From: Gammaproteobacteria bacterium
GTDB taxonomy: Bacteria; Pseudomonadota; Gammaproteobacteria; Steroidobacterales; Steroidobacteraceae
Reading direction: 5' to 3'
NCBI GenBank assembly: GCA_016874055.1
Contig: VGVG01000011.1
Span: forward strand, 1 to 48,632
Length of the DNA stretch: 48,632 nucleotides
Each line of letters opens with the position of its first letter. Within the stretch, counting starts at the first letter, position 1. Of the stretch, positions 1,759 through 47,424 are shown piece after piece. The notes below the pieces were generated by a model that was given only the letters and a program-made list of their open reading frames with translations, did not search any database and was not told where the DNA came from. The translations under genes were made by a program, and so were the position numbers.

Positions 1759-2550
1759 TTGAATATGGTAGCCGCGCAGAAGCCGTTAATTATTGACGGA
1801 TTGCCGCTTGAAAGCCAAGTTAGGGCCCCCTTCACCGACCGATATGGACCGGTCGATCTCAAATCGGCCGCGTTCTGGGCTGACGCTCGATGGCCGGGGA
1901 GATTCAGAGAAATTTCGAAGCGCTTCGGATGCTTTATCGTCGAATGTGCTGTCATCGTTGGGGAAAAAGCGAGCCTTGCCGACATATTCGAGATGGGCGC
2001 TGGGCACTCCGAAAAGGCGAAAATTGAAATCGATTTGGTAAAAGGGGGATTCTAGATCACGTTCGAAATTTGGATACTCTCGTTATTCGGTGTGTTGATA
2101 GCGAGGGCGAGAAAGTTCTCACGGACGTATCCATTCTGATGTCTGAGATCGCTCGGGTGTATGGCAGCGCCTGCCAGAGAAATTACAAAGTCCCGGAGCC
2201 GATCCCTCTGGCTTAACACCTGCATCGCCGTGTGTGAGTGGGCAGAGCACAACGGCGATCGTTTCATGACCTCGTTCCGGTGGGCGACTATCTCCACAGA
2301 GATGTTTACCACCGACTTGGAGCCGATATACGGGATTGCACGCGTTCCTAAAGGACATCCTCGTTTAGAGCGCTGTCTCTTCTACTTCATGCACCGACTT
2401 CCCGGAGGGTAGGGTGAATGCGCTCTATCGATCATCGGGATCAAAAAGCTCGTCAGTCGGCGTTCTTCCTTTGACATCCCCGTTGTTACCCAAAAACTTG
2501 ATCTGCGGCGAGATATCGTCGGCTACATTAGTTCAGTTGCGAAAAATTAA
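1759..2550 (+). pseudogene. Decayed unknown gene, about 260 codons, two frameshifts and an amber stop
   Basis: Three protein-like segments join end to end if lesions are corrected. Segment one begins at TTG 1759 or ATG 1765 and runs to a TAG at 2053. Just before that, in the AAAAGGGGG run at 2040-2048, a one-base shift leads into a second frame (RGILDHVRNLDTLVIRCVDS...) which stops at 2214-2216. Shifting again there gives a third segment (NTCIAVCEWAEHNGDRF...), whose TAG at 2410-2412 is followed in frame by another protein-like stretch (LSIIGIKKLVSRRSSFDI...) ending at TAA 2548-2550. Composition is soluble and mixed; I recognise no family. The alternative, several tiny genes, is less likely because each piece lacks its own ribosome binding site. 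Confidence 0.6.
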
Positions 2551-2692: not shown

Positions 2693-4834
2693 ATGAAAAG
2701 AGTTGCGATCATCGGCGGTGGCCCAGGCGGTTTGTTTGCCGCCCACCAGCTTGAGACGAGCTGCGCTGAGGAGGCGACAATCACGATTTTTGAGGCTAGT
2801 TGCAGACTCGGCGGCAAGATCGTCACTGCGAATTTTGACAAGGCGCCGATCACATTTGAGGCAGGTGTAGCCGAGCTCTATGGCTACTGGAATATTGGTC
2901 ACGACCCTTTGCGATCACTCATTAAATCTTTGAAGCTTCCTGTCGTCAGCATGCGAGGCAACGCCGTCGCATTCGGCGACCGCATAATGCGAAACTGGAG
3001 GGAGACTCAGCGCACCCTCGGCGAGGAAGCGGCGCAGCAGATCGAGTCTTTTTACGCCACCTGCGCGACACTCTGTACGCCCACCGAGTATTACGATAGC
3101 TACAGCGGCACCGACAATGCACATCCTTGGGCTAGCCGGCCACTTAGCGATTTACTCGATGAGCTGTTGACCAACGAGATAGCACGCCGCTATGTCGAGA
3201 CGATCATTCGCAGTGATCTTGCGACAGAACCGCATCTGACTAACGCGCTAAATGGGCTGAAGAATATCCTACTCGATCTGCCCGAATACCAGCGTTACTA
3301 CACCATTCCTGGAGGGTTACAACAGTTCATCGATAAGCTAGCGGCGAAGTTAAAAAGCACGATCCGTCTCAACACTCCGGTCGTCGGGGCGACGCCTCGC
3401 ACCGACGGACGTTGGGATCTACTCGTCAAGCAGAATGGCAACGCCAGTATCAACATCTTTGACATAGTCCTTTTCGCACTCCCGTGCTACTCGCTGTCGA
3501 AGATTGAGTGGGGAAATCGGGACCTTCGTATCACTATTCAGAAGCACCTTGCTCATCATGATTACCCAGCGCATTATCTGCGCGTCTCCGTATTATTCGA
3601 TAAGCGCTTTTGGGAAACGCATGTCAAAGGTGATTATTGGATTAGTGACGCTTTCGGCGGCTGTTGCGTTTACAACGAGACACTGCGGCACAAAATAAAA
3701 ACGCAGCATGGGTGTCTTAGCTGGTTGATCGCGGGGTCGGACGCTCTCGCGTATGAAGGAGTCGCCGATCGCGACTTAGCGCAGAGGTGTGTCGAGAGCC
3801 TGCCCAAGTGTATGGGCGATGGGATGGCTCGAATGCTCGAGGTTAAGGTCCATCACTGGGCGGCGGCTGTCAGCGGCCTGCCCGGTGGTAATCCAGTGCA
3901 CGACCTGCGGACTAAACACCAACCGACGCGAGGGCGTTTTCCAAGCGTTTACTTGTGCGGAGATTATCTCGCCGATACGACGGTGAACGGGGCCTTAGAC
4001 TCAGCCGATTTTGCCACTGACTTAATTTTGACGGAGCTACGCCGCGGCAGGTACGGAACCGATGGTACGAAAGTGCTCGACGCACTGCGGGCAGATTTCG
4101 GCTATGAGGCGGCGGAAAAAGAGTCGACACTTAGCGACGACTACCATGACGAGTATGCAGTCGGTATGAGTTACGAGAGGTCATTCCGCGAATACTTTGA
4201 CGAGCACTACACCTGCGATTTGATCGAGACGATCTGGGGGCTCAAGCCGCCGTATCGGCTACTGGATTGTGGAAGTGCATCAGGACTCACTCTTGCCTGC
4301 TTTGCTAAAAAGGGTGTCGAGGCGTGGGGCATCGAGAACAATGAACATATCCATGCGCAAACGAAGCCTGAGTGGAAGCATCGTAACTTGTTAGGCGATA
4401 GTCGTGCTTTGCCTTTCGAAGATGGATTTTTCGATATCATCTATGACACCTCGCTCTGTTACATCCCTGAGCCCTATCTGGCCAAGGCGATATCAGAGCT
4501 CTTCAGAGTCACACGCATCGGCGTGTTCTTCGGCGGTATTACCTCAGACATGACAAAGGAGGTCATCGAATATCACGAAATATTTGAGGGCGTTCAGGTG
4601 CTTGAGACACAGTGGACTTGGGCGGAACGCTTTCAGGCTGCCGGCTTCAGGATAGCAACGACGGACCCGGTCGCTTTGCGCAAAGCTTGGCAGATTGAGG
4701 TCAAATCGAACGAGGGAGATTATCCATGGTATCCAAATAAGGAGACCATTCGCTTCTGCTTCTTCTCGAAGCCGGACGCAGCCGAGCACGCTGCCGCCCT
4801 CAACGCCAAGCTCCGCAAAAAAAGTATGAAGTGA
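2693..4834 (+). CDS. Fusion protein: FAD-dependent amine-oxidase-like domain + SAM-dependent methyltransferase
   Basis: A 713-residue two-domain protein. Residues 1-445 form a flavin amine oxidase/protoporphyrinogen-oxidase-like domain: the N-terminus carries the dinucleotide-binding motif VAIIGGGPGG, then the second flavin motif (RLGGKI), and the domain closes with the FAD-contact motif VYLCGDYLADTTVNGALDSA. Residues about 495-690 form a class I methyltransferase with motif I LLDCGSASG near 520 and FEDGFFDIIYDTSLCYI near 575. ATG 2693 is chosen because the Rossmann strand begins there; GTG 2672 and ATG 2678 are alternatives. The ABC exporter begins 19 bases downstream, so the two probably form an operon. 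Known family roles suggest oxidation and methylation of one small molecule, perhaps then exported; the substrate is unknown. Codon content is more AT-rich than in the ribosomal genes. Confidence 0.85.
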   Translation: MKRVAIIGGGPGGLFAAHQLETSCAEEATITIFEASCRLGGKIVTANFDKAPITFEAGVAELYGYWNIGHDPLRSLIKSLKLPVVSMRGNAVAFGDRIMRNWRETQRTLGEEAAQQIESFYATCATLCTPTEYYDSYSGTDNAHPWASRPLSDLLDELLTNEIARRYVETIIRSDLATEPHLTNALNGLKNILLDLPEYQRYYTIPGGLQQFIDKLAAKLKSTIRLNTPVVGATPRTDGRWDLLVKQNGNASINIFDIVLFALPCYSLSKIEWGNRDLRITIQKHLAHHDYPAHYLRVSVLFDKRFWETHVKGDYWISDAFGGCCVYNETLRHKIKTQHGCLSWLIAGSDALAYEGVADRDLAQRCVESLPKCMGDGMARMLEVKVHHWAAAVSGLPGGNPVHDLRTKHQPTRGRFPSVYLCGDYLADTTVNGALDSADFATDLILTELRRGRYGTDGTKVLDALRADFGYEAAEKESTLSDDYHDEYAVGMSYERSFREYFDEHYTCDLIETIWGLKPPYRLLDCGSASGLTLACFAKKGVEAWGIENNEHIHAQTKPEWKHRNLLGDSRALPFEDGFFDIIYDTSLCYIPEPYLAKAISELFRVTRIGVFFGGITSDMTKEVIEYHEIFEGVQVLETQWTWAERFQAAGFRIATTDPVALRKAWQIEVKSNEGDYPWYPNKETIRFCFFSKPDAAEHAAALNAKLRKKSMK

Positions 4835-4853
4835 GCCCACTGGAGATCTCCTG

Positions 4854-6665
4854 ATGGTCGCCACGAATGAGACCAATGCGATTACTAAAGATGAGCAGAC
4901 CGCCCACTCTGGTGACGTGTCCTTCGTCGTCGGATTCATGCGGCCGTACCTTAAGCCCTATAAAAAGGCGCTTTGGTGGCTTGCCGGCATTCTTCTGATC
5001 GAGATGGCGTTCAATTTCAGCTTCCCTCTCGTTACACAGCATTTGATCGACGAAGGTCTCCAGAAAAAAAATTGGGAGATAGTGGTCTGGGTGCTAGGCT
5101 TCCTTGCTTTCGCGGCCGTAGCCAACATTGCGCTCGGCATCGCCTCCGACTTTCTTTATACCCGCACGGCGACCCATGTGACTCGCGACCTCAGACAGTC
5201 GCTGTTCGATCACATGCACCGTATGTCGATGCCATATTTCCATCGGACTCAGACCGGGACGATTACCTCTCGCTTCTCCGGCGACATCGTCGCAACGGAG
5301 ACTGCATTGGTCACGTCCGTGCCTTATTTCGTAACGCCTGCGCTCGAGGTGATTTATTCAACAGTGCTACTGCTAATTCTAAGCCCTACGCTGGGGGCAA
5401 TTGCGCTGATTAGCTCCCCACTGGTCGTGTGGTTACCCAAGCTACTTGCCACAAAGGCCTTCAAACTTGCTTATGACAAGCGAAGGGCTGAGGGAAAACT
5501 CATGGGTGTCGTTCAAGAGAACGTTTCGGCACAACCCGTTCTGAAGGCCTTTAGCCTGATAAGACGTGTAAGAGATGACTTTAAAGGTATCAATACGACA
5601 TGGTTCGGTACGGCCTCGCGCGGCAACTTCCAAGCCGCACTCGTCGAGCGCGCGTCGCATTCAGGGCTATACGTTCTGCACATCATCGTTTTTGGAATCG
5701 GCGTGTACTGGGTCTTCAACGATACGATCACGCTTGGAACGTTGGTCGCTTTCGAAGGCGTTTTTCTATCGATGGGCTATGCGATGACCGATGTCACCCA
5801 ATATGTGCCGAATCTCGCTCAAGCGGTGGGTGGGGTACGGCACATGGAAGAATTCCTTCGCGAGAGACCGTCCGTCGTGGATAAATCGACCGCGATGGAA
5901 GCGCCCTATTTTTCTCGTTTGATCGAGTTCGATCGTGTAGGTTTTGGCTATGAATCAGAGAGTGACTTCCGTCTTGAGGATTTCAGCCTTGTCATCCCTA
6001 AGGGCTCTATGCTGGGCATTGTCGGGCCTTCCGGATCTGGAAAAAGTACCATCCTCAATCTATTACTGCGCTTCAATGATCCAATGACGGGAGCCGTTCG
6101 ATTCGATGATCTCGATTTGCGGGATATGACTCAAGCGAGCTATCGACACCAGCTTGGCGTGGTGTTTCAGGAGAACTTTTTATTCAATACGACGATCATC
6201 GAAAATATCCGGCTCGGTAAGCCAGACGCCAGTATGGAGGAGATAAAGGAGGCAGCTCGCCTAGCCGAAGTAGAAGACTTCATTCTTTCCCTACCGCAGC
6301 AATGGCAGACCCAGGTGGGTGAGCGTGGCTCGCAACTTTCCGAAGGACAGCGTCAACGAATCGCGATAGCTAGAGCGCTGGTACGTGATCCTGCGCTACT
6401 TGTGCTCGACGAAGCTACCAGCGCACTTGATGTAGCCACTGAAGGGCGACTCAACGAGACTCTACTTCGTATCAAAAAGTCGCGGACGGTAGTGATGGTC
6501 ACTCACAGGCTCGCCAGCGTCGTCGGCGCGGACCGTGTCATCGTGATGGAGGACGGGCGGATCGTCGAGTCAGGCACACATAAAGAATTGATTGCGCGTG
6601 CCGGTCTCTACGCTAGGCTATGGCAGATACAACTCAACACCGCACAACTATCTGTGGTCACTTGA
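4854..6665 (+). CDS. ABC exporter, fused membrane and ATPase domains
   Basis: A 603-residue half-transporter of the MsbA/LmrA type. Residues about 30-330 form the six-helix exporter domain; residues 360-595 form the ATPase with Walker A GPSGSGKST, Q-loop VVFQENFLF, signature LSEGQRQRI, Walker B LLVLDEATSALD and the H-loop VTHRL. All catalytic residues are intact, so it is predicted to work as a homodimer in the inner membrane. A good ribosome binding site (GGAG in CTGGAGATCTCCTG) precedes the start. The 19-base spacing to the oxidase-methyltransferase fusion suggests that it exports the product of that enzyme (inference). Substrate range of such exporters, from lipids to natural products, cannot be read from sequence. 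Confidence 0.93.
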   Translation: MVATNETNAITKDEQTAHSGDVSFVVGFMRPYLKPYKKALWWLAGILLIEMAFNFSFPLVTQHLIDEGLQKKNWEIVVWVLGFLAFAAVANIALGIASDFLYTRTATHVTRDLRQSLFDHMHRMSMPYFHRTQTGTITSRFSGDIVATETALVTSVPYFVTPALEVIYSTVLLLILSPTLGAIALISSPLVVWLPKLLATKAFKLAYDKRRAEGKLMGVVQENVSAQPVLKAFSLIRRVRDDFKGINTTWFGTASRGNFQAALVERASHSGLYVLHIIVFGIGVYWVFNDTITLGTLVAFEGVFLSMGYAMTDVTQYVPNLAQAVGGVRHMEEFLRERPSVVDKSTAMEAPYFSRLIEFDRVGFGYESESDFRLEDFSLVIPKGSMLGIVGPSGSGKSTILNLLLRFNDPMTGAVRFDDLDLRDMTQASYRHQLGVVFQENFLFNTTIIENIRLGKPDASMEEIKEAARLAEVEDFILSLPQQWQTQVGERGSQLSEGQRQRIAIARALVRDPALLVLDEATSALDVATEGRLNETLLRIKKSRTVVMVTHRLASVVGADRVIVMEDGRIVESGTHKELIARAGLYARLWQIQLNTAQLSVVT

Positions 6666-6759: not shown

Positions 6760-7002
6760 AAGGCTATTGCCACGGATGCCGAGTGGTCCGTTGCGAGAGG
6801 AGGCCAGATGTACGGCCATTATTAGCTGCAGGAAATCGATGGTTCGCTCGAGATCGGCGGCGGAATCCTTATTCTGTCGGTATCGTCCAATCAGTACGCC
6901 GCCACGCTAGCGTCTTAGTTCGGAATTGCAGAGTCCGATCTTCCCCTCGTTGCACCAAATGTGGTCAACTTCTTATCTAGAAATCTCGGCTTCATGGTCT
7001 GA
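6760..7002 (+). pseudogene. Remnant of the C-terminus of a DUF1501 protein
   Basis: In one frame the translation matches the ending of DUF1501 (sulfatase-like, Tat-exported) proteins: WSVARGGQMYGHY, then an in-frame TAG, then LEIGGGILILSVSSNQYAAT, another in-frame TAG after TLAS, then FGIAESDLPLVAPNVVNF and a natural TGA at 7000-7002. In intact relatives these stretches lie at the end of a protein of roughly 400-500 residues; here the N-terminal part is missing. This explains most of the 347-base gap between the ABC exporter and the DUF1838 gene. Bases 6666-6759 show nothing recognisable. Confidence 0.7.
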
Positions 7003-10666: not shown

Positions 10667-12811
10667 TTATTTCTTTGGCTTTCTCGCTTCTTCGATCACC
10701 TTCTCGGCCACGTTGCGCGGAACGAGGTCGTAGTGCGAGAATTCCATAGTGTACGAGGCGCGTCCGCTCGACATGGTGCGCAGCTGACCGATGTAGCCAA
10801 ACATTTCAGAGAGCGGCACGGTCGCCACGACAGCGATGTTGGTGCCACGCTCGAGCTGGTCCTGGATCGAGCCGCGACGACGGTTGATATCGCCGATGAC
10901 GTCGCCAAGATAGTCGCCCGGGGTGACTACTTCGACCTTCATTACAGGCTCGAGCAAAACCGGACTGGCCTTCGGCAGCGCTTCGCGGAAGCAGGCTTTT
11001 GCGGCGATTTCGAAGGTGAGAGCGTTGGAGTCGACGTCGTGGTAGCTGCCATCGAACAGCGTCGCGCGGAAGTCCACGGTCGGGAATTTCGCGAGTACGC
11101 CTTCCTCTAGCTGCATCTTCAGACCCTTTTCGACTGAGGGCACATACTCGCGCGGCACTGATCCGCCGACAGTCGCGTCGACGAACTCAAAACCCTTGCC
11201 GCGTTCTAGCGGCTCAAACTTGATCCACACTTCGGCGAACTGACCGGCACCGCCGGTCTGCTTCTTGTGAACGTACTGCTGTTCGATACGCTTGGTGAAA
11301 GCTTCACGGTAAGCCACCTGCGGCTCACCCATAATACCTTCGACATTGAACTCGGTACGCATCCGGTCGAGCGTAACATCGAGGTGCAACTCACCCATGC
11401 CGCGCAGAATGGTCTGACCAGTTTCGCGGTCGGTTTCAAGACGTAGGGAGGGATCGGCACGAACCATTTTGCCAAGTGTGGCACTGAACTTTTCGAGTTC
11501 ACCCTTAGACTTCGGCTGCACTGACACGCTGATCACGGGCTCAGGGAAGCGCATGCGCTCGAGGACCACCGGATGATCAGTATCGCAGAGCGTATCGCCG
11601 GTGTCGGTTTCGACGAGCGAAACAAGTGCAATGATATCGCCAGCGCGCGCCTCTTCGATAGCGTTGGCTTCCTTTGCGAACATCTCGACCATTCGGCCGA
11701 TCTTTTCGCGCTTACCGCGAGTGGTGTTCGTGATCGACATGCCCTTTGTCAGCACGCCAGAATACACGCGCACAAAGGTGAGCACGCCGTAAGCGTCGTT
11801 GATTACTTTAAACGCGAGCGCTGAGAACGGCTCATCATCGGAGCAAATGCGCTCGCCGATTGGATTACCGTCGGCATCAACCGTCTTGATCGCAGCTACG
11901 TCGGTCGGTGCCGGAAGGAAGTCGACGACGGCGTCTAGAACTTGAGTCACACCTTTATTTTTGTAGGACGAACCGCAAAGCACCGGTGTAAAGGATCCGG
12001 TCACTGTTCCTTTGCGCAGGCAGGCGATGAGCGTGTCGATCGAAGGATCTTTCTCGTCGAGGAGATAGGCCTCCATCGCTGTATCGTCCATCTCTAGACA
12101 GGTGTCGACCAGTTCCTTGCGGTAATCGGCGATCTTGCTAAGCAACTCACGGTCGGACGGCACGGCATTACCAAACTTATCGATGATCTCGTCGGTGATG
12201 TCGAGTTCAGTTGGTTTCGCATCACGATCGTCGGAATCCCACACCAATGCTCTCATTCGAACGAGATCGATCATGCCCTTGAAGTTATCTTCGGAACCGA
12301 TTGGCAGCTGCACCGGTAGCGGACGCGCGCCGAGGCGCTTCTTGATCATATCGACACAGCGGGTGAAGGACGCGCCGCTACGGTCCATTTTGTTGACGTA
12401 GCAAATTCTTGGCACGTCGTAGTTGTCTGCCAAGCGCCAGTTGGTTTCGGATTGAGGCTCGACGCCCGCCACGCCGTCGAACACGACGACGGCGCCGTCA
12501 AGCACGCGCAACGAGCGGTTCACCTCGATGGTGAAGTCAACGTGCCCGGGGGTATCGATGACGTTAATCTTTTTCTTTCGCCACAGCGTAGAGACGGCGG
12601 CCGACTGAATGGTGATGCCGCGCTTTTGTTCCTGTTCAAGATAGTCGGTGGTCGTCGAGGACTTGAGGTCCTTAGTATCGTGTACGTCGACGATGGTGTG
12701 CTTGCGCCCCGTGTAGTAGAGGATGCGCTCGGTCGTCGTGGTTTTGCCCGCATCGACGTGGGCGATGATGCCGATGTTGCGGATATCGGCAAGGGGAGTA
12801 GTGCGGGGCAT
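10667..12811 (-). CDS. Elongation factor G, second paralogue
   Basis: A 714-residue translational GTPase with all G motifs intact: [23 protein letters not shown] and NKMD, followed by the usual EF-G domains II-V. It is a separate lineage from the str-operon EF-G at 45337-47424: it has a longer switch region ([20 protein letters not shown]) and differs throughout. Paralogous EF-Gs in other bacteria can specialise in translocation or ribosome recycling, or serve under stress; which applies here is unknown. It is a stand-alone gene with only a weak ribosome binding site, divergent from the amino-acid permease and ended by the hairpin at 10594-10623. Confidence 0.95.
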
Positions 12812-21546: not shown

Positions 21547-21622
21547 GCTCACGTAGCTCAGTCGGTAGAGCACGTCCTTGGTAAGGACGAGGTCACCGGT
21601 TCGATCCCGGTCGTGAGCTCCA
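21547..21622 (+). tRNA. tRNA-Thr (GGT)
   Basis: Acceptor GCTCACG/CGTGAGC, anticodon stem CGTCC/GGACG enclosing TTGGTAA (anticodon GGT), T-arm CCGGTTCGATCCCGG, encoded CCA. It lies 53 bases before the tufB start codon. Confidence 0.97.
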
Positions 21623-21655
21623 ATGTAGTAGTCAGCGAGTTATTTGAACGGTTTT

Positions 21656-22862
21656 GGTTTTTAGGAGATACAGACGTGTCCAAGGAAAAATTCGAACGCA
21701 GCAAGCCGCACGTAAACGTTGGGACGATTGGTCACGTTGACCACGGTAAGACGACGCTGACTGCGGCGCTGACGAAGGTGATGGCCGAGACGTTCGGCGG
21801 TGAGTTTACGGCGTACGACCAGATCGATAAGGCGCCTGAAGAAAAAGCGCGTGGCATCACGATTTCGACGGCGCACGTGGAGTATCAGTCGAAGGAGCGT
21901 CACTACGCACACGTTGATTGCCCGGGGCACGCGGACTATGTGAAGAACATGATCACGGGCGCGGCACAGATGGACGGCGCGATTCTCGTGGTGTCGGCTG
22001 CTGACGGCCCGATGCCGCAGACGCGCGAGCACATTCTGCTCGCCCGTCAGGTCGGTGTGCCGTACATCGTCGTGTTCATGAATAAGGCAGACATGATCGA
22101 TGACAAAGAGCTGCTTGAGCTCGTTGAGATGGAAGTGCGGGAGCTTCTGAGCACGTACAAGTTCCCTGGCGACGCGACGCCGATCGTGGTCGGCTCTGCG
22201 CTAAAGGCACTCGAGGGCGACACGAGCCCGATCGGGGTGCCTGCGGTGGTTAAGCTCGTTGAAGAGATGGACAAGTACATCCCGGTTCCGAAGCGCGACG
22301 TGGACAAGCCGTTCCTGATGCCGGTTGAGGACGTGTTCTCGATCTCTGGCCGTGGCACGGTGGTGACGGGTCGTATTGAGCGCGGCATCGTGAAAGTGAA
22401 CGAAGAAGTTGAGATCATCGGTTTGAAGGATACGGTGAAGACGACGTGCACGGGCGTTGAGATGTTCCGCAAGCTGCTCGATGAGGGTCAGGCGGGCGAC
22501 AACGTAGGTGTGCTGCTGCGCGGTACGAAGCGCGAGGACGTTGAGCGTGGTCAGGTTCTGGCAAAGCCGGGCAGCATCACGCCGCACACGAAGTTCGAGT
22601 GCGAAGTGTACGTTCTGACGAAGGAAGAGGGCGGACGTCACACACCGTTCTTCAAGGGTTATCGCCCACAGTTTTACTTCCGTACGACGGACGTGACCGG
22701 CACGATCGAGTTGCCGAGCAACACCGAGATGGTGATGCCTGGGGACAACATCAAGATGACGGTCGAGTTGATCGCGCCGATCGCGATGGAAGACGGACTG
22801 CGCTTTGCGATCCGCGAGGGCGGCCGCACCGTCGGTGCAGGCGTCGTCGCTAAGATCCTGAA
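21656..22862 (+). repeat. tuf duplication, copy 1
   Basis: This block is identical by eye, at a constant offset of 25,770 bases, to 47426-48632. It begins 20 bases before the tufB start codon and so includes the shared ribosome-binding leader; the sequences diverge immediately upstream of GGTTTTTAGGAG. The right end of the identity is unknown because the window stops. Confidence 0.93.
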
Positions 22863-22866
22863 GTGA
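21676..22866 (+). CDS. tufB: Elongation factor Tu, copy B
   Basis: A 396-residue EF-Tu with the complete GTPase motifs [17 protein letters not shown] and NKAD, followed by the two beta-barrel domains. EF-Tu carries aminoacyl-tRNA to the ribosome. The start is GTG 21676 ([20 protein letters not shown]), with AGGAG nine bases upstream; a longer frame back to 21613 would run into tRNA-Thr. It lies between the Tyr-Gly-Thr tRNA cluster and tRNA-Trp, the classical tufB position, and is identical in sequence to the str-operon copy as far as the window shows. Confidence 0.99.
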
Positions 22867-26467: not shown

Positions 26468-30547
<4,080 letters not shown>

Positions 30548-30557
30548 GGTGGAAGTC

Positions 30558-33500
30558 ATGAAAGACCTTCTTCAAATTTTCAAGCAGAATGCAGCGGTTG
30601 AGCACTTCGACTCGATCAAAATCGGGCTGACCTCGCCTGAGATGATCAAGTCGTGGTCTTACGGCGAAGTCAAAAAGCCGGAGACCATCAACTACCGTAC
30701 CTTCAAGCCGGAGCGCGATGGCCTTTTCTGTGCCAGGATCTTCGGTCCCATTAAGGACTACGAGTGTCTTTGCGGTAAGTACAAGCGCCTTAAGCATCGT
30801 GGTGTGGTGTGCGAGAAGTGCGGCGTTGAGGTGACTCAGTCAAAGGTTCGCCGCGATCGCATGGGTCACATCGACCTAGCATCACCGGTTGCGCACATTT
30901 GGTTCCTAAAGTCGCTACCTTCGCGTATCGGTCTTATGCTCGACATGACGCTGCGCGAAATTGAGCGGGTGCTCTACTTTGAAGCCTTTGTGGTCATTGA
31001 GCCGGGCATGACGCCGATGCAGCGTGGCCAGTTGCTCACCGACGAGATGTATCTCGAGGCGATTGAGCAGCACGGTGACGAATTCGACGCCCGTATGGGT
31101 GCCGAGGCGATGTTCGAGCTGCTGCGCTCACTGGACCTGCAGACGGAGGTCGGTAAGGCTCGTGAGGCTATGGGTAATACCAACTCCGAGACGAAGCTCA
31201 AGCGCCTTTCAAAGCGCCTTAAGCTTATAGAGTCGTTTATCGAGTCGGGTAATAAGCCCGAGTGGATGGTGATGACGGTCCTGCCGGTATTGCCGCCCGA
31301 GTTGCGTCCGCTGGTGCCGCTCGATGGCGGCCGTTTTGCGACCTCCGACCTTAACGATCTCTACCGTCGCGTCATCAACCGTAACAACCGTTTACGACGA
31401 CTGCTCGAACTTAGTGCGCCGGACATCATCCTCCGTAACGAAAAGCGTATGCTGCAAGAAGCGGCCGATGCGTTGCTCGACAACGGTCGCCGCGGTCGTG
31501 CAATCACGGGTACGAACAAGCGTCCGCTCAAGTCGCTCGCCGACATGATCAAGGGCAAGCAGGGCCGATTCCGTCAGAACCTGCTGGGTAAACGCGTCGA
31601 CTATTCGGGTCGTTCGGTCATCGTGGTCGGTCCGACGTTACGTCTGCACCAGTGCGGCCTGCCAAAAAAAATGGCGCTGGAGCTCTTTAAACCGTTCATT
31701 TTCCATAAGCTTCAATTGCGTGGCGATGCCTCGACGATCAAAGCCGCCAAGCGGCTCGTCGAGCGTGAGGGCCCGGAGATTTGGGACATCCTCTCCGAGG
31801 TGATCCGCGAGCACCCAGTGCTCCTTAACCGCGCCCCGACGCTGCACCGTCTCGGCATCCAGGCTTTTGAGCCGGTGCTGATCGAGGGTAAGGCGATCCA
31901 GCTGCACCCGCTCGTCTGTACGGCGTTCAATGCCGACTTCGACGGTGATCAGATGGCCGTCCACGTTCCGCTGTCGCTCGAGGCTCAGCTCGAAGCGCGT
32001 GCGCTGATGATGTCGTCGAACAATATTCTCTCGCCCGCGAACGGCGATCCGATCATCGTGCCGTCGCAAGATGTGGTGCTCGGTCTCTATTACATGACCC
32101 GCGAGTGCGTGGGCGCGAAGGGTGAGGGCATGATGTTCGCCGACGTGGGTGAGGCGCACCGCGCCTATGAAACCCGCGAGGTCGATCTGCAGGCCCGTAT
32201 CTCCGTCCGAATCAGCGAGATGGTTACAGAGAATGGCGAGAAGAGGTCGCGTCGTCGGTTGGTGAAGACTACCGTCGGTCGAGCGCTGCTGTCGGAAGTG
32301 ATTCCTGAGGGCCTCTCGTTTGACATTATTAACCAGGATATGACCAAGAAGGCGATCTCAGCGACGATTAACGCCTGCTATCGCCAGCTTGGTCTTAAAG
32401 ATACGGTCATCTTCGCCGATCGATTGATGTACACGGGTTTCCATTACTCAACGCGCTCCTCGGTCTCGTTCGGTATCGACGATATTGTCATTCCTGAGCA
32501 GAAGGCGAATATCGTCGTGTCCGCTGATCGCGAAGTGAAGGAGATCCAGGATCAGTACGCCTCAGGTCTCGTCACGAATGGCGAGCGGTACAACAAGGTC
32601 GTCGACATTTGGTCGCGCGCCAATGATCAGGTTGCCAAGGCGATGATGGAAAAGCTCGGCTCCGAGGAAGCGACGGACTCTAAGGGCAAGGTGGAGCGCC
32701 AGAAGTCGTTTAACTCGATATTCATGATGGCTGACTCGGGTGCCCGTGGTAGCGCCGCCCAGATCCGACAGCTCGCTGGCATGCGTGGTCTGATGGCTAA
32801 GCCCGACGGCTCGATCATCGAGACGCCGATCACGGCAAACTTCCGTGAAGGCCTGAACGTCCTGCAGTACTTCATCTCGACCCACGGTGCTCGTAAGGGG
32901 CTCGCAGATACCGCGTTGAAGACCGCGAACTCGGGTTACCTTACGCGTCGCCTAGTTGACGTTGCGCAGGATCTCGTTGTCACCGAATTTGACTGCGGCA
33001 CGACCGAGGGTCTTCCGGTCACGCCGATCGTCGAAGGGGGTGACGTTGTCGAGGCCCTCGGCGAGCGCGTGCTCGGTCGCGTGATCGTCGAAGACGTGCT
33101 GCGTCCGGGCGGCGGCAAAGGCGCGGTGCTCATCGAGGTGGGGACGCTGATCGACGAGCAACTCGTGCGTACGCTCGAACAGTACGGCGTTGATCAGGTT
33201 AAAGTTCGCTCGCCCATCACCTGCGCCACGCGCCACGGTGTTTGTGCGATGTGTTACGGGCGCGACCTCGCGCGCGGTCGTATCATCAATATCGGTGAGG
33301 CAGTCGGCGTCATGGCTGCGCAGTCAATCGGTGAACCAGGTACCCAGCTCACGATGCGCACCTTCCACATCGGTGGTGCGGCGTCGCGTGCGGCGGCGGC
33401 CTCGAGCGTCGAGGTTCGTAACAAGGGCACGCTGCGCTTCCATAATGTAAAGACCGTCTCTCACGAAAAGGGTTATGTCGTTGCGGTATCGCGTTTGGGC

Positions 33501-34772
33501 GAAATCGGTGTTGTCGATGAGTTCGGTCGCGAGCGGGAGCGCTACAAGATCCCTTACGGCGCGCAGATCGGCTTGATCGAGGGCATGCAAGTGACGGCAG
33601 GGCAGACAGTTGCCACGTGGGATCCGCACACCCACCCGGTTGTGACCGAGGTGGCCGGTTTCCTGCGCTTCCAAGATTTCGTCGACGGTCTGACGGTGAC
33701 GCGTCAGATCGATGACGTCACGGGACTCTCGTCCGTCGTCGTAATGGACGTCAGTAAGCAGCGTGGCGGTAAAGAATTGCGTCCGACGATCAAGCTCGTT
33801 AACGGAAAGGACAAGGAAGTCCCGTTTGCGAATACAACGATCCCGGCCGTGTATACGCTGCCTGCCGGTGCTCTCATAAGCCTCGAGGATGGCGCGAAAG
33901 TATCTGTCGGCGACGTCATCGCCCGCATCCCGCAGGAATCGTCGAAGACCCGCGACATCACGGGTGGTCTGCCGCGCGTGGCGGATCTCTTCGAGGCTCG
34001 GAAGCCGAAGGACCAGGCGATCCTCGCTGAGAAGAGCGGCACCACGAGTTTCGGCAAAGGGACTAAGGGTAAGCGTCGGCTCATCATCACTGACGAGAAA
34101 GGTGAGAAGTACGAGGAGCTTATTCCGAAATGGCGCCAGCTCAACGTGTTCGAGGGGGAGCAAGTCACCCGCGGCGAAGTCATAGCCGACGGCGAACCGA
34201 ATCCGCATGATGTCTTGCGTCTACAGAGCGTCGAAGCCCTCGCCAACTATCTCGTTCGCGAGATTCAGGACGTCTACCGTCTGCAGGGCGTGAAAATCAA
34301 CGACAAACACATCGAGGTGATCATCCGGCAGATGCTGCGTAAGGCTGAGGTCACGAGCATCGGCGATACGTCGCTGCTCAAGGGCGAACAGCTCGACCGT
34401 TCCCGCGCGCTTGACATCAACGATCGTATGGTCAGGGAGGGTAAGCAGGCAGCATCGCTCGCGCCGGTTCTGCTTGGCATCACCAAGGCATCGCTGGCGA
34501 CAGAGTCGTTCATCTCGGCGGCGTCGTTCCAGGAAACCACGCGCGTTCTTACCGAAGCTGCGGTTCGTGGCCTAAAGGACGATCTGCGTGGTCTAAAGGA
34601 AAACGTTATCGTCGGTCGCCTCATCCCTGCGGGCACGGGCTTCCCCGCCCACGCTCATCGTCGGCACAAACTCGACGAAACGTCGGCGCCCAGTTTCATG
34701 GACGTTGGTGCTGCCTCGGGCGGTGAGTCCGACGAGCCCACGGTAGGAGAGGAACAGGGCGCTGCTGGTTGA
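30558..34772 (+). CDS. rpoC: RNA polymerase beta' subunit
   Basis: A 1404-residue beta' subunit. The N-terminal zinc site ([20 protein letters not shown]), the catalytic magnesium triad in [12 protein letters not shown] and the second zinc site ([15 protein letters not shown]) are intact. ATG 30558 lies ten bases after the rpoB stop with AAGGTGG upstream; GTG 30549 is an alternative. The unusual feature is at the 3' end: the stop codon overlaps the start of an IclR regulator by one base (TGATG). Confidence 0.99.
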
Positions 34773-45336: not shown

Positions 45337-47424
45337 ATGACGCGCACCACTCCTATCGAGCGCTACCGAAACATCGGTATTTCCGCGCACATCGATGCGG
45401 GTAAGACCACCACGACCGAGCGCATCCTGTTCTTTACGGGTGTGTCACACAAAATTGGTGAGGTTCACGATGGTGCGGCCATCATGGACTACATGGAGCA
45501 GGAGCAGGAGCGTGGCATCACGATCACCTCTGCTGCGACCACCTGCTTTTGGAAGGGGATGAACAAAGAATTCCCTGAGCACCGCATCAACATCATCGAT
45601 ACTCCGGGGCATGTCGACTTCACCATCGAAGTTGAGCGTTCGTTGCGTGTTCTCGACTCTGCTGTCGCGCTCTTCTGCGCGGTCTCGGGCGTGCAGCCGC
45701 AGTCGGAAACGGTATGGCGGCAAATGAATCGCTACGGCGTACCACGTATCGCGTTTGTCAACAAAATGGATCGCTGCGGTGCCAACTTCAATCGTTGTGT
45801 CGAGCAGATTCGTGCTCGCCTGCGCGGCAATCCCGTACCCATCCAGGTACCTATTGGCGCCGAAGACAACTTCGAGGGTGTGATCGATCTCCTCAAGATG
45901 AAAGCAATCTACTGGGATGCCGATACGCAAGGTATGAACTTCGAGTACCGCGATATTCCTGCCGAGTTGCAGGACGAGGCGGAAGCGGCGCGTGCGCAAA
46001 TGATCGAAGCGGCAGCCGAGGCGAACGAGTCGCTAATGAACAAATTTCTCGAGGGTGCCGAGCTCTCGCAGGATGAAATCAACGCTGGACTGCGTGAGCG
46101 CGCTTGGCGCAACGAGATCGTGCTCTGCATGTGCGGCACCGCATTTAAGAACAAAGGCGTACAGGCTCTGCTCGATGCCGTTGTCGAGTATATGCCTTCG
46201 CCCGTACACATGCCGGCGGTGAAGGGCCTAAACGAATCTGGCGAATCTGCCACGCGTCCCGCCGCAGATGAGGCACCGTTTGCGGCATTGGCGTTTAAAA
46301 TTTTGAACGACCCCTTCGTTGGTAACCTCACTTTCTTCCGGGTCTATTCGGGTGTTTTGAGTTCTGGTGACTCGGTCTACGTGCCGACTAAGAGCAGAAA
46401 CGAGCGCATCGGTCGTTTGCTGCAGATGCACGCTTCCGATCGCAGCGAAATCAAGGAAGTTCGCGCGGGCGACATCGCTGCGGCGGTGGGCCTCAAAGAT
46501 GTCACAACCGGTGATACGCTCTGCGACGAAAAGAAAGTCATCACACTCGAGAAGATGGTGTTTCCGAACCCCGTCATCTCGGTTGCTGTCGAGCCGAAGA
46601 CGAAGGCCGACCAGGAAAAAATGGGTCTTGCGCTGCAGCGCCTCGCAAAGGAGGACCCGTCGTTCCGCGTGCATACCGATCAAGAGTCCGGTCAGACCAT
46701 CATCTCCGGCATGGGTGAACTGCACCTCGAAATCATCGTCGATCGTATGAAGCGTGAGTTCAAGGTCGAGGCGAATGTTGGTAAGCCGCAGGTAGCTTAC
46801 CGCGAAACCATTCGTGGTAAGGTCGAGTCCGAAGGCAAGTTCGTTCGGCAGTCGGGCGGTCGCGGCCAGTACGGTCACGTGTGGCTCAAGCTAGAGCCTA
46901 ACGAGCCCGGCAAGGGCTACGAATTCATCAACGGTATCATCGGTGGCGCGGTTCCGCGCGAGTTCATTCCGGCAATTGACAAGGGCGTCAAAGAAGCCGC
47001 CGATACAGGCGTGCTCGCGGGGTATCCCGTCGTCGATGTTAAGGTCACGGCTTTCGATGGCTCGTATCACGATGTCGACTCCAACGAGATGGCGTTCAAG
47101 ATCGCCGGATCGCTCGGCTTCAAGGATGGCTTTCGTAATGCCAAGCCGGTCATCCTTGAGCCTGTCATGAAAGTAGAGGTCGAGACACCGGAAGATTATT
47201 CCGGCGACGTGATCGGCGATCTCAATCGTCGGCGCGGTCAAATTACCGGTATGAAAGACTCGCCCTCGGGCAAGTCGATTCTGGCTGAAGTTCCCCTCTC
47301 CGAGATGTTCGGTTACGCCACTTCGGTGCGTTCCATGAGTCAGGGTCGTGCGACCTTCACCATGGAATTCGAGAAGTATATGGAAGTACCGCCGAATATC
47401 GCCGAGTCCATCATCAAGCGTTAA
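45337..47424 (+). CDS. fusA: Elongation factor G, str-operon copy
   Basis: A 695-residue EF-G with intact GTPase motifs ([30 protein letters not shown]) and the standard five-domain length. This is the canonical translocase by position, between rpsG and tufA. It differs clearly from the second EF-G at 10667-12811, so the two are old paralogues rather than a recent copy. Confidence 0.99.

Follow-up and report, generated by a model that had tools for sequence, protein, structure and literature searches.

A recurrent gene pair encoding an oxidase–methyltransferase fusion of amine-oxidase fold and an adjacent ABC exporter

We analysed a stretch of 48,632 nucleotides (hereafter the window) from a gammaproteobacterium of the Steroidobacteraceae (contig VGVG01000011.1 of assembly GCA_016874055.1). 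It carries two adjacent genes, one for a protein that joins an amine-oxidase-like flavin domain to an S-adenosylmethionine (SAM) methyltransferase domain and one for an ATP-binding cassette (ABC) exporter. The window is a whole contig (C11) of a genome, G000, of 1.39 Mb and 83.65% completeness; other genomes and loci are cited by our G and L numbers where they need to be told apart. The open reading frame (ORF) of the fusion runs from an ATG at 2693, which is the start conserved across fusion relatives in the family alignment, to a stop at 4834 (713 codons). After 19 bases, the exporter ORF extends from an ATG at 4854 to a stop at 6665 (603 codons). The original prediction had given these coordinates and the 19-base spacing to an intact exporter, and both are correct according to the ORFs and Pfam matches. 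The features of the pair are as follows.

2693..4834, + strand: fusion protein of 713 amino acids, with an amine-oxidase-fold flavin domain (residues ~1-450) and a putative class I SAM methyltransferase domain (~481-700) (Pfam, family alignments, AlphaFold2, Foldseek)
2693..4042, + strand: oxidase domain, residues 1-450 (PF01593, columns invariant in 16 members, profile alignment to L-amino acid oxidase)
4133..4834, + strand: methyltransferase domain, from residue 481 (Methyltransf_25/11, profile match to LahSB 6uak, alignment columns)
4854..6665, + strand: ABC exporter half-transporter of 603 amino acids, with a transmembrane domain followed by an ATPase domain and no peptidase domain (Pfam, NCBIfam, alignment, motifs read from the sequence)

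The N-terminal domain belongs to the PF01593 superfamily. Residues 12-445 match the Amino_oxidase model with 86.2 bits (cut-off, 19.8) over model positions 2-442 of 443, and both the GxGxxG and the ExxxRxGG motifs are present. The flavin adenine dinucleotide (FAD) motif reads GGGPGGL (residues 8-14), ExxxRxGG lies at 34-41, and GDY (423-425) and NGxxDS (432-437) are found near the C-terminal end of the domain. In an alignment of 16 diverse fusion members, the GGGPGG segment with the exception of P11, and thus the dinucleotide-binding residues G8, G10 and G13, is invariant in all 16, as are E34, R38, G40-G41, GDY 423-425, N432-G433 and D436-S437. An AlphaFold2 model built from the 16-sequence alignment has a mean predicted local distance difference test score (pLDDT) of 79.1 and a predicted template modelling score of 0.72; pLDDT falls below 50 at residues 196-199, 393-401 and 425-428, in the linker (454-480) and at the extreme end. 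When the oxidase part was searched against the PDB with Foldseek, a putative L-amino acid oxidase (7eme) was the best match, followed by protoporphyrinogen oxidase and putrescine oxidase, with 14-20% identity in the best 50 structural alignments. None of the 12 NCBIfam matches listed for the fusion reaches its cut-off, and the protoporphyrinogen oxidase equivalog is missed by a wide margin (39.3 bits, cut-off 517).

The C-terminal domain matches Methyltransf_25 and Methyltransf_11 at residues 524-610 (34.3 and 33.5 bits; cut-offs, 27 and 21.2). It carries a motif I, LLDCGSASG (523-531), and the columns G527, G531 and Glu548 are invariant in all 16 members, so that by its cut-offs, motif I and acidic residue it is predicted to be a class I SAM methyltransferase. 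A family profile of this part matches LahSB (6uak) with 45.7 bits. The claim that a single polypeptide combines a flavin amine-oxidase-like domain with a SAM methyltransferase is thus confirmed, by Pfam matches above the cut-offs and by recurrent full-length relatives.

The exporter has the architecture and motifs of an ABCB-type protein. ABC_membrane (119.3 bits) and ABC_tran (114.1 bits) are found in one chain, and the ATPase motifs are intact (Walker A GPSGSGKST, the signature LSEGQ, Walker B LLVLDEATS and the H-loop histidine). Its Pfam matches are of the transmembrane and ATPase types only, without a leader peptidase. Among the 25 listed of 189 matching NCBIfam families, the exporter lies below every curated cut-off; the best match is MsbA_rel (392 bits, cut-off 780.4), and the MsbA lipid A exporter equivalog is not reached (364.4 bits, cut-off 602). 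Both domains of the fusion and the exporter are members of well-known families.

Full-length fusions recur in Bradyrhizobium and its kin, in Bryobacterales, in another acidobacterium, in Nostoc and in Polyangium. We named 80 loci, which are the best 80 of 282 relatives among 314 stretches found with an alignment query, and rarer lineages may be missed by this procedure. Identity to the window fusion is 47% for an uncultured member of the Rhizobiales, 46% for Polyangium, 45% and 41% for Bryobacterales, 42% and 43% for Nostoc and 42% for a groundwater acidobacterium; the remaining 73 of the 80 loci are mostly assigned to Bradyrhizobium. Since full-length relatives with 36-48% identity occur in several phyla, the fusion is not a product of chance. 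Among 398 genomes of the phylum, ten from one family have full-length matches (38-44% identity), and two more match over the methyltransferase only. Matches at E <= 1e-30 are present in four of 385 genomes of the class of G520, namely G520, G451, G884 and G1063. In G451 (L038), a member of the Bradyrhizobium family and one of the ten genomes with full-length matches, two ORFs take the place of the single one, with the interruption inside the oxidase domain; this could be a sequencing error or a real break. Among five genomes of the Bradyrhizobium family, purifying selection acts on both genes, the ratios of nonsynonymous to synonymous substitution rates being 0.07-0.15 in the fusion gene and 0.11-0.23 in the exporter gene (10 pairs each); these values apply to those genomes and not to the window copy, whose nearest relative is 47% identical.

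In 76 of the 80 named loci, spanning Alphaproteobacteria and Acidobacteriota, an orthologous exporter lies directly downstream of the fusion on the same strand. A survey of 149 genomes of the Bradyrhizobium family found the fusion in 47 (E <= 1e-30) and the exporter in 44 (E <= 1e-150). All 44 exporters are in fusion genomes, where they share contig and strand with the fusion and 58-616 bases separate the two matches, and at the threshold used none of the 149 genomes has the exporter without the fusion. Together with the grouping of the exporters in the tree described below, these counts uphold the view of fusion and exporter as a recurrent, co-inherited unit. Upstream of the pair, rpoC is present in 72 of the 80 loci, and 64 have fusA downstream as well, several loci being too short to show either; in ten loci from Bradyrhizobium and its kin (L032-L041), ORF translations place rpoC on one side of the pair and fusA on the other. 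In the window, rpoC (30528-34772) is on the same contig, ~24 kb from the pair. The original prediction also suggested looking for an adjacent precursor gene, and none was found: among 773 ORFs of 25-200 amino acids within 2.5 kb of nine pairs, all matches between clades fall inside the two genes themselves, leaving no conserved small precursor ORF.

In a tree of exporters, a moderately supported branch (78/76) separates the fusion-linked sequences from the others. Together with the exporter linked to an aminomutase gene (see below), they are set apart from six unlinked exporters (100/100), among which long branches meet. The window exporter pairs with that of L042 (100/99), and the same pairing is seen for the fusions (95/99) in an oxidase tree from which G1417, a genome with a lone oxidase, is omitted. 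In this tree the Bryobacterales sequences also pair, and the sequences of the Bradyrhizobium family that have an exporter form one set. None of 59 relatives of the window bacterium (genus, family and order, with the window's own genome excluded) has a full-length match, 10 having partial matches only; among 196 genomes of the order, only G000 and G1417 match at E <= 1e-25, and four genomes besides G000 have partial matches only among 369 of the class. Because of this distribution, the window bacterium probably received both genes together by horizontal transfer. A phage or plasmid origin was considered and rejected, since there was no match in 50,697 phage records, one partial plasmid match of 26% identity and no IMG/VR pattern match.

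The oxidase domain departs from classical amine oxidases at one position. In a sequence-profile alignment, which is not a structural one, the lysine of L-amino acid oxidase upstream of an FW pair aligns with Arg297 of the fusion. We take this lysine to be the one beside flavin N5 of amine oxidases. Arg297 is invariant in all 16 diverse members and has a counterpart in the lone oxidase of G1417. Because an invariant arginine stands in place of the lysine, classical amine oxidation by the fusion is uncertain. Of the suggestion that the substrate is an amine, the amine-oxidase fold, the FAD motifs and the PF01593 match are retained, and the lysine is not.

We consider it very likely that the fusion and exporter genes form a functional unit, and this is much better supported than the identity of any product. 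As to what the unit does, we give slightly better than even chances to a bifunctional flavin- and SAM-dependent tailoring enzyme that relies on the adjacent ABC protein to export its product. The fusion would unite an FAD-dependent oxidoreductase of amine-oxidase fold and a class I SAM methyltransferase in one polypeptide, and both domains would modify the same metabolite by dehydrogenation or oxidation and by methylation. The half-size ABCB-type exporter would act as a homodimer and remove the modified product from the cytoplasm or carry it across the inner membrane. We infer that both domains share one substrate and that the exporter has this as its cargo. In other lineages, the gene that takes the place of the exporter (described below) likewise encodes a protein with a hydrophobic C-terminal anchor, and for this reason a membrane-associated or amphipathic substrate is probable. 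A more far-reaching version, which we put forward as tentative and regard as somewhat doubtful, is that the pair makes and exports an oxidised, methylated metabolite common in Bradyrhizobium, that the two-gene cassette has spread between phyla, and that in a second form an anchored membrane protein replaces the exporter. Such a metabolite could perhaps be a signal, a metal ligand or a membrane-associated compound.

Several observations weigh against a tailoring enzyme with a dedicated exporter. Four of the 80 loci have no exporter, namely those of Polyangium (L043), Nostoc (L045 and L046) and the groundwater acidobacterium (L047), and the three fusion genomes of the Bradyrhizobium family that are without one all belong to a single genus, g772. 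In the genomes of L043, L045, L046, L047, G884 and G1063, no exporter scores above 381 bits, compared with at least 698 for adjacent partners, among up to 100 candidates scored per genome, which is fewer than the first-look matches in 10 of 12 genomes. The L045 contig ends ~1.3 kb downstream of the fusion, and the genome-wide search there also gave no exporter orthologue. Since fusions without an orthologous exporter exist, export by this ABC protein is not part of the chemistry itself. The 149 genomes come from one family and are not independent, and the Fisher p value of 1e-34 for co-occurrence ignores relatedness and is not readable as a probability. G1417, which is from the window's own family, has a lone oxidase of 463 amino acids without a methyltransferase, and the methyltransferase is thus not obligatory. 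When this sequence is included in the oxidase tree, the pairing of window and L042 becomes weak (59/29), both G1417 and the window having long branches. A single clade of all exporter-linked fusions is rejected in the oxidase tree (approximately unbiased test, p 0.00018), and the exporter linkage has consequently been gained or lost more than once. The simplest reading is that of an old pair that moved as a unit and whose exporter was lost or replaced several times, and the counts fit gain as well as loss.

The genes that stand in for the exporter bear on the same question. In three alphaproteobacteria, G884, G1063 and G1195 (g772), the gene following the fusion encodes a protein of ~280-290 amino acids with a hydrophobic C-terminus; those of G884 and G1063 have no Pfam match. 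In G1417, the gene of the lone oxidase shares 4 bases with a gene for a 212-residue protein that has a similar hydrophobic end. A hidden Markov model comparison of this protein with the others gives an E value of 9.5e-5 (in a small set) and an hhalign probability of only 21%, a slight kinship that also counts against the main reading. The exporter group, in turn, is not exclusive to the fusion: in the Bryobacterales genome G1155, where one fusion was found, a different contig carries a further exporter from this group with a lysine 2,3-aminomutase gene immediately after it (L141:137-3708). This hints at a beta-amino-acid cargo, in a single case on a contig of 3.7 kb. In all, the proposal of a dedicated exporter and obligatorily fused domains stands for the pairing in 76 of 80 loci and fails for the fusions without exporter in Nostoc, Polyangium, an acidobacterium, two alphaproteobacteria and three g772 genomes, and for the lone oxidase of G1417.

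Two further neighbourhoods were recorded. DUF2252 genes that are 59% identical to each other lie ~3 kb from the fusion in Nostoc (L046:2023-3153) and beside it in the acidobacterium (L047:8393-9508), both loci without exporter. In two alphaproteobacteria, the fusion is preceded by a gene for a predicted secreted protein without Pfam match (L139:7172-8026 and L140:5842-6786), and a gene that looks porin-like from its sequence is located divergently upstream.

The fusion could instead be a housekeeping-type lipid or isoprenoid enzyme, a desaturase or dehydrogenase like protoporphyrinogen oxidase or carotenoid desaturase joined to a lipid methyltransferase, with the ABC protein as a lipid flippase of the MsbA kind. 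The arginine at position 297, the protoporphyrinogen oxidases among the top structural matches, the MsbA-like models that give the exporter its best scores and the membrane-anchored look of the alternative partners would all suit such an enzyme, as would the position of the pair downstream of rpoC in most loci with no evident biosynthetic cluster. However, both proteins score far below the cut-offs for protoporphyrinogen oxidase and the MsbA lipid A exporter, the best structural match is a putative L-amino acid oxidase, and the other sampled genomes of the genus lack the fusion, which is not suggestive of a housekeeping role, so that we regard this explanation as unlikely. Somewhat less likely still is that the genes lie side by side but share no task, the enzyme serving intracellular catabolism and the exporter being a general multidrug pump. 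Fusion homologues without an exporter, and an exporter of the group beside lysine 2,3-aminomutase, are what this would lead one to expect, but the adjacency in 76 of 80 loci, the co-occurrence across 149 genomes and the similar groupings in the oxidase and exporter trees speak against it.

A ribosomally synthesized and post-translationally modified peptide (RiPP) pathway, in which the two enzyme domains would modify a precursor peptide for secretion through the exporter, appears very improbable. It is suggested by the closest solved relative of the methyltransferase, LahSB, which methylates the C-termini of lanthipeptides (PMC11285071), but the similarity (45.7 bits) is at the level of the methyltransferase fold only. 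We rejected a peptide pathway because there is no conserved precursor ORF near the pair (no match between clades outside the two genes for the 773 ORFs of nine loci) and no leader peptidase domain in the exporter.

The surroundings of the pair in the window contain one further feature that lies outside the module.

1765..2463 (approximate), + strand: remnant of a gene for ~295 amino acids (partial DNA matches to two genomes of the same genus, six-frame translation)

Decay of the genes on both sides of the pair had been proposed, and for the left side this is borne out. With a 1051-base query from the left flank, positions 204-700 and 480-700 match two genomes of the same genus at 64% and 67% identity. 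In these two genomes, G006 and G020, ORFs of ~295 amino acids are intact (L180:957-1850 and L181:1231-2118) and match the window remnant at ~35%; in the window remnant the first ~64 residues have no counterpart, there are in-frame stops and a middle stretch lies in another frame. On the right, 6760-7002 was not demonstrated to be a remnant: its longest ORF has 65 amino acids, and no relative was found in the six same-genus stretches compared. These stretches (three of them contigs of less than 8 kb) share with the region only a DUF1838 gene and, in one case, a short-chain dehydrogenase/reductase gene, and no empty site was seen. Neither gene of the pair is interrupted, and their genome, of 1.39 Mb at 83.65% completeness, is one of the smallest sampled in the genus, where 23 others range from 1.4 to 4.3 Mb. 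Elsewhere on the contig, a second elongation factor G gene (10667-12811, 714 amino acids from the translation) is present in addition to that at 45337-47424. Elongation factor Tu (EF-Tu) is encoded at 21613-22866, after tRNA genes, and a second copy seems to begin at the contig end (47431-48632), where the antisense ORFs of the first copy are found again; the contig probably breaks off at this EF-Tu repeat.

Searches of the open-access literature with narrow or combined terms found no description of the fusion or of its pairing with an exporter. Since the pair is common in Bradyrhizobium, a genus with laboratory strains, an exported metabolite would be accessible to study there, and the replacement of lysine by Arg297 and the swap between exporter and anchored protein offer handles on the chemistry and on the destination of the product, respectively. 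A flavoenzyme and a SAM methyltransferase act in one pathway in the TmsA/TmsB system for 10-methylstearate, of which natural fusions are known; TmsA and TmsB differ from the window fusion in having another flavin fold, a methyltransferase of the fatty-acid type and no exporter. With MsbA, TIGR02204 and Sav1866, the window exporter shares the half-transporter organization, the fused ATPase and its motifs, but in the exporter tree it belongs to a separate group made up of the exporters linked to a fusion or to an aminomutase gene. LahSB and other class I methyltransferases of small molecules and peptides have in common with the fusion the Methyltransf_11/25 match, the glycines of motif I and the invariant glutamate, whereas the fusion is only weakly similar to LahSB-type enzymes, is joined to a flavoenzyme and has no conserved peptide precursor nearby. 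With the PF01593 flavin amine oxidases (L-amino acid oxidase, monoamine oxidase, putrescine oxidase and protoporphyrinogen oxidase), the fusion shares the fold, the FAD motifs and ExxxRxGG; it differs from them in its low identity (14-20% in the best 50 structural alignments), in having Arg297 where L-amino acid oxidase has its lysine and in the added methyltransferase.

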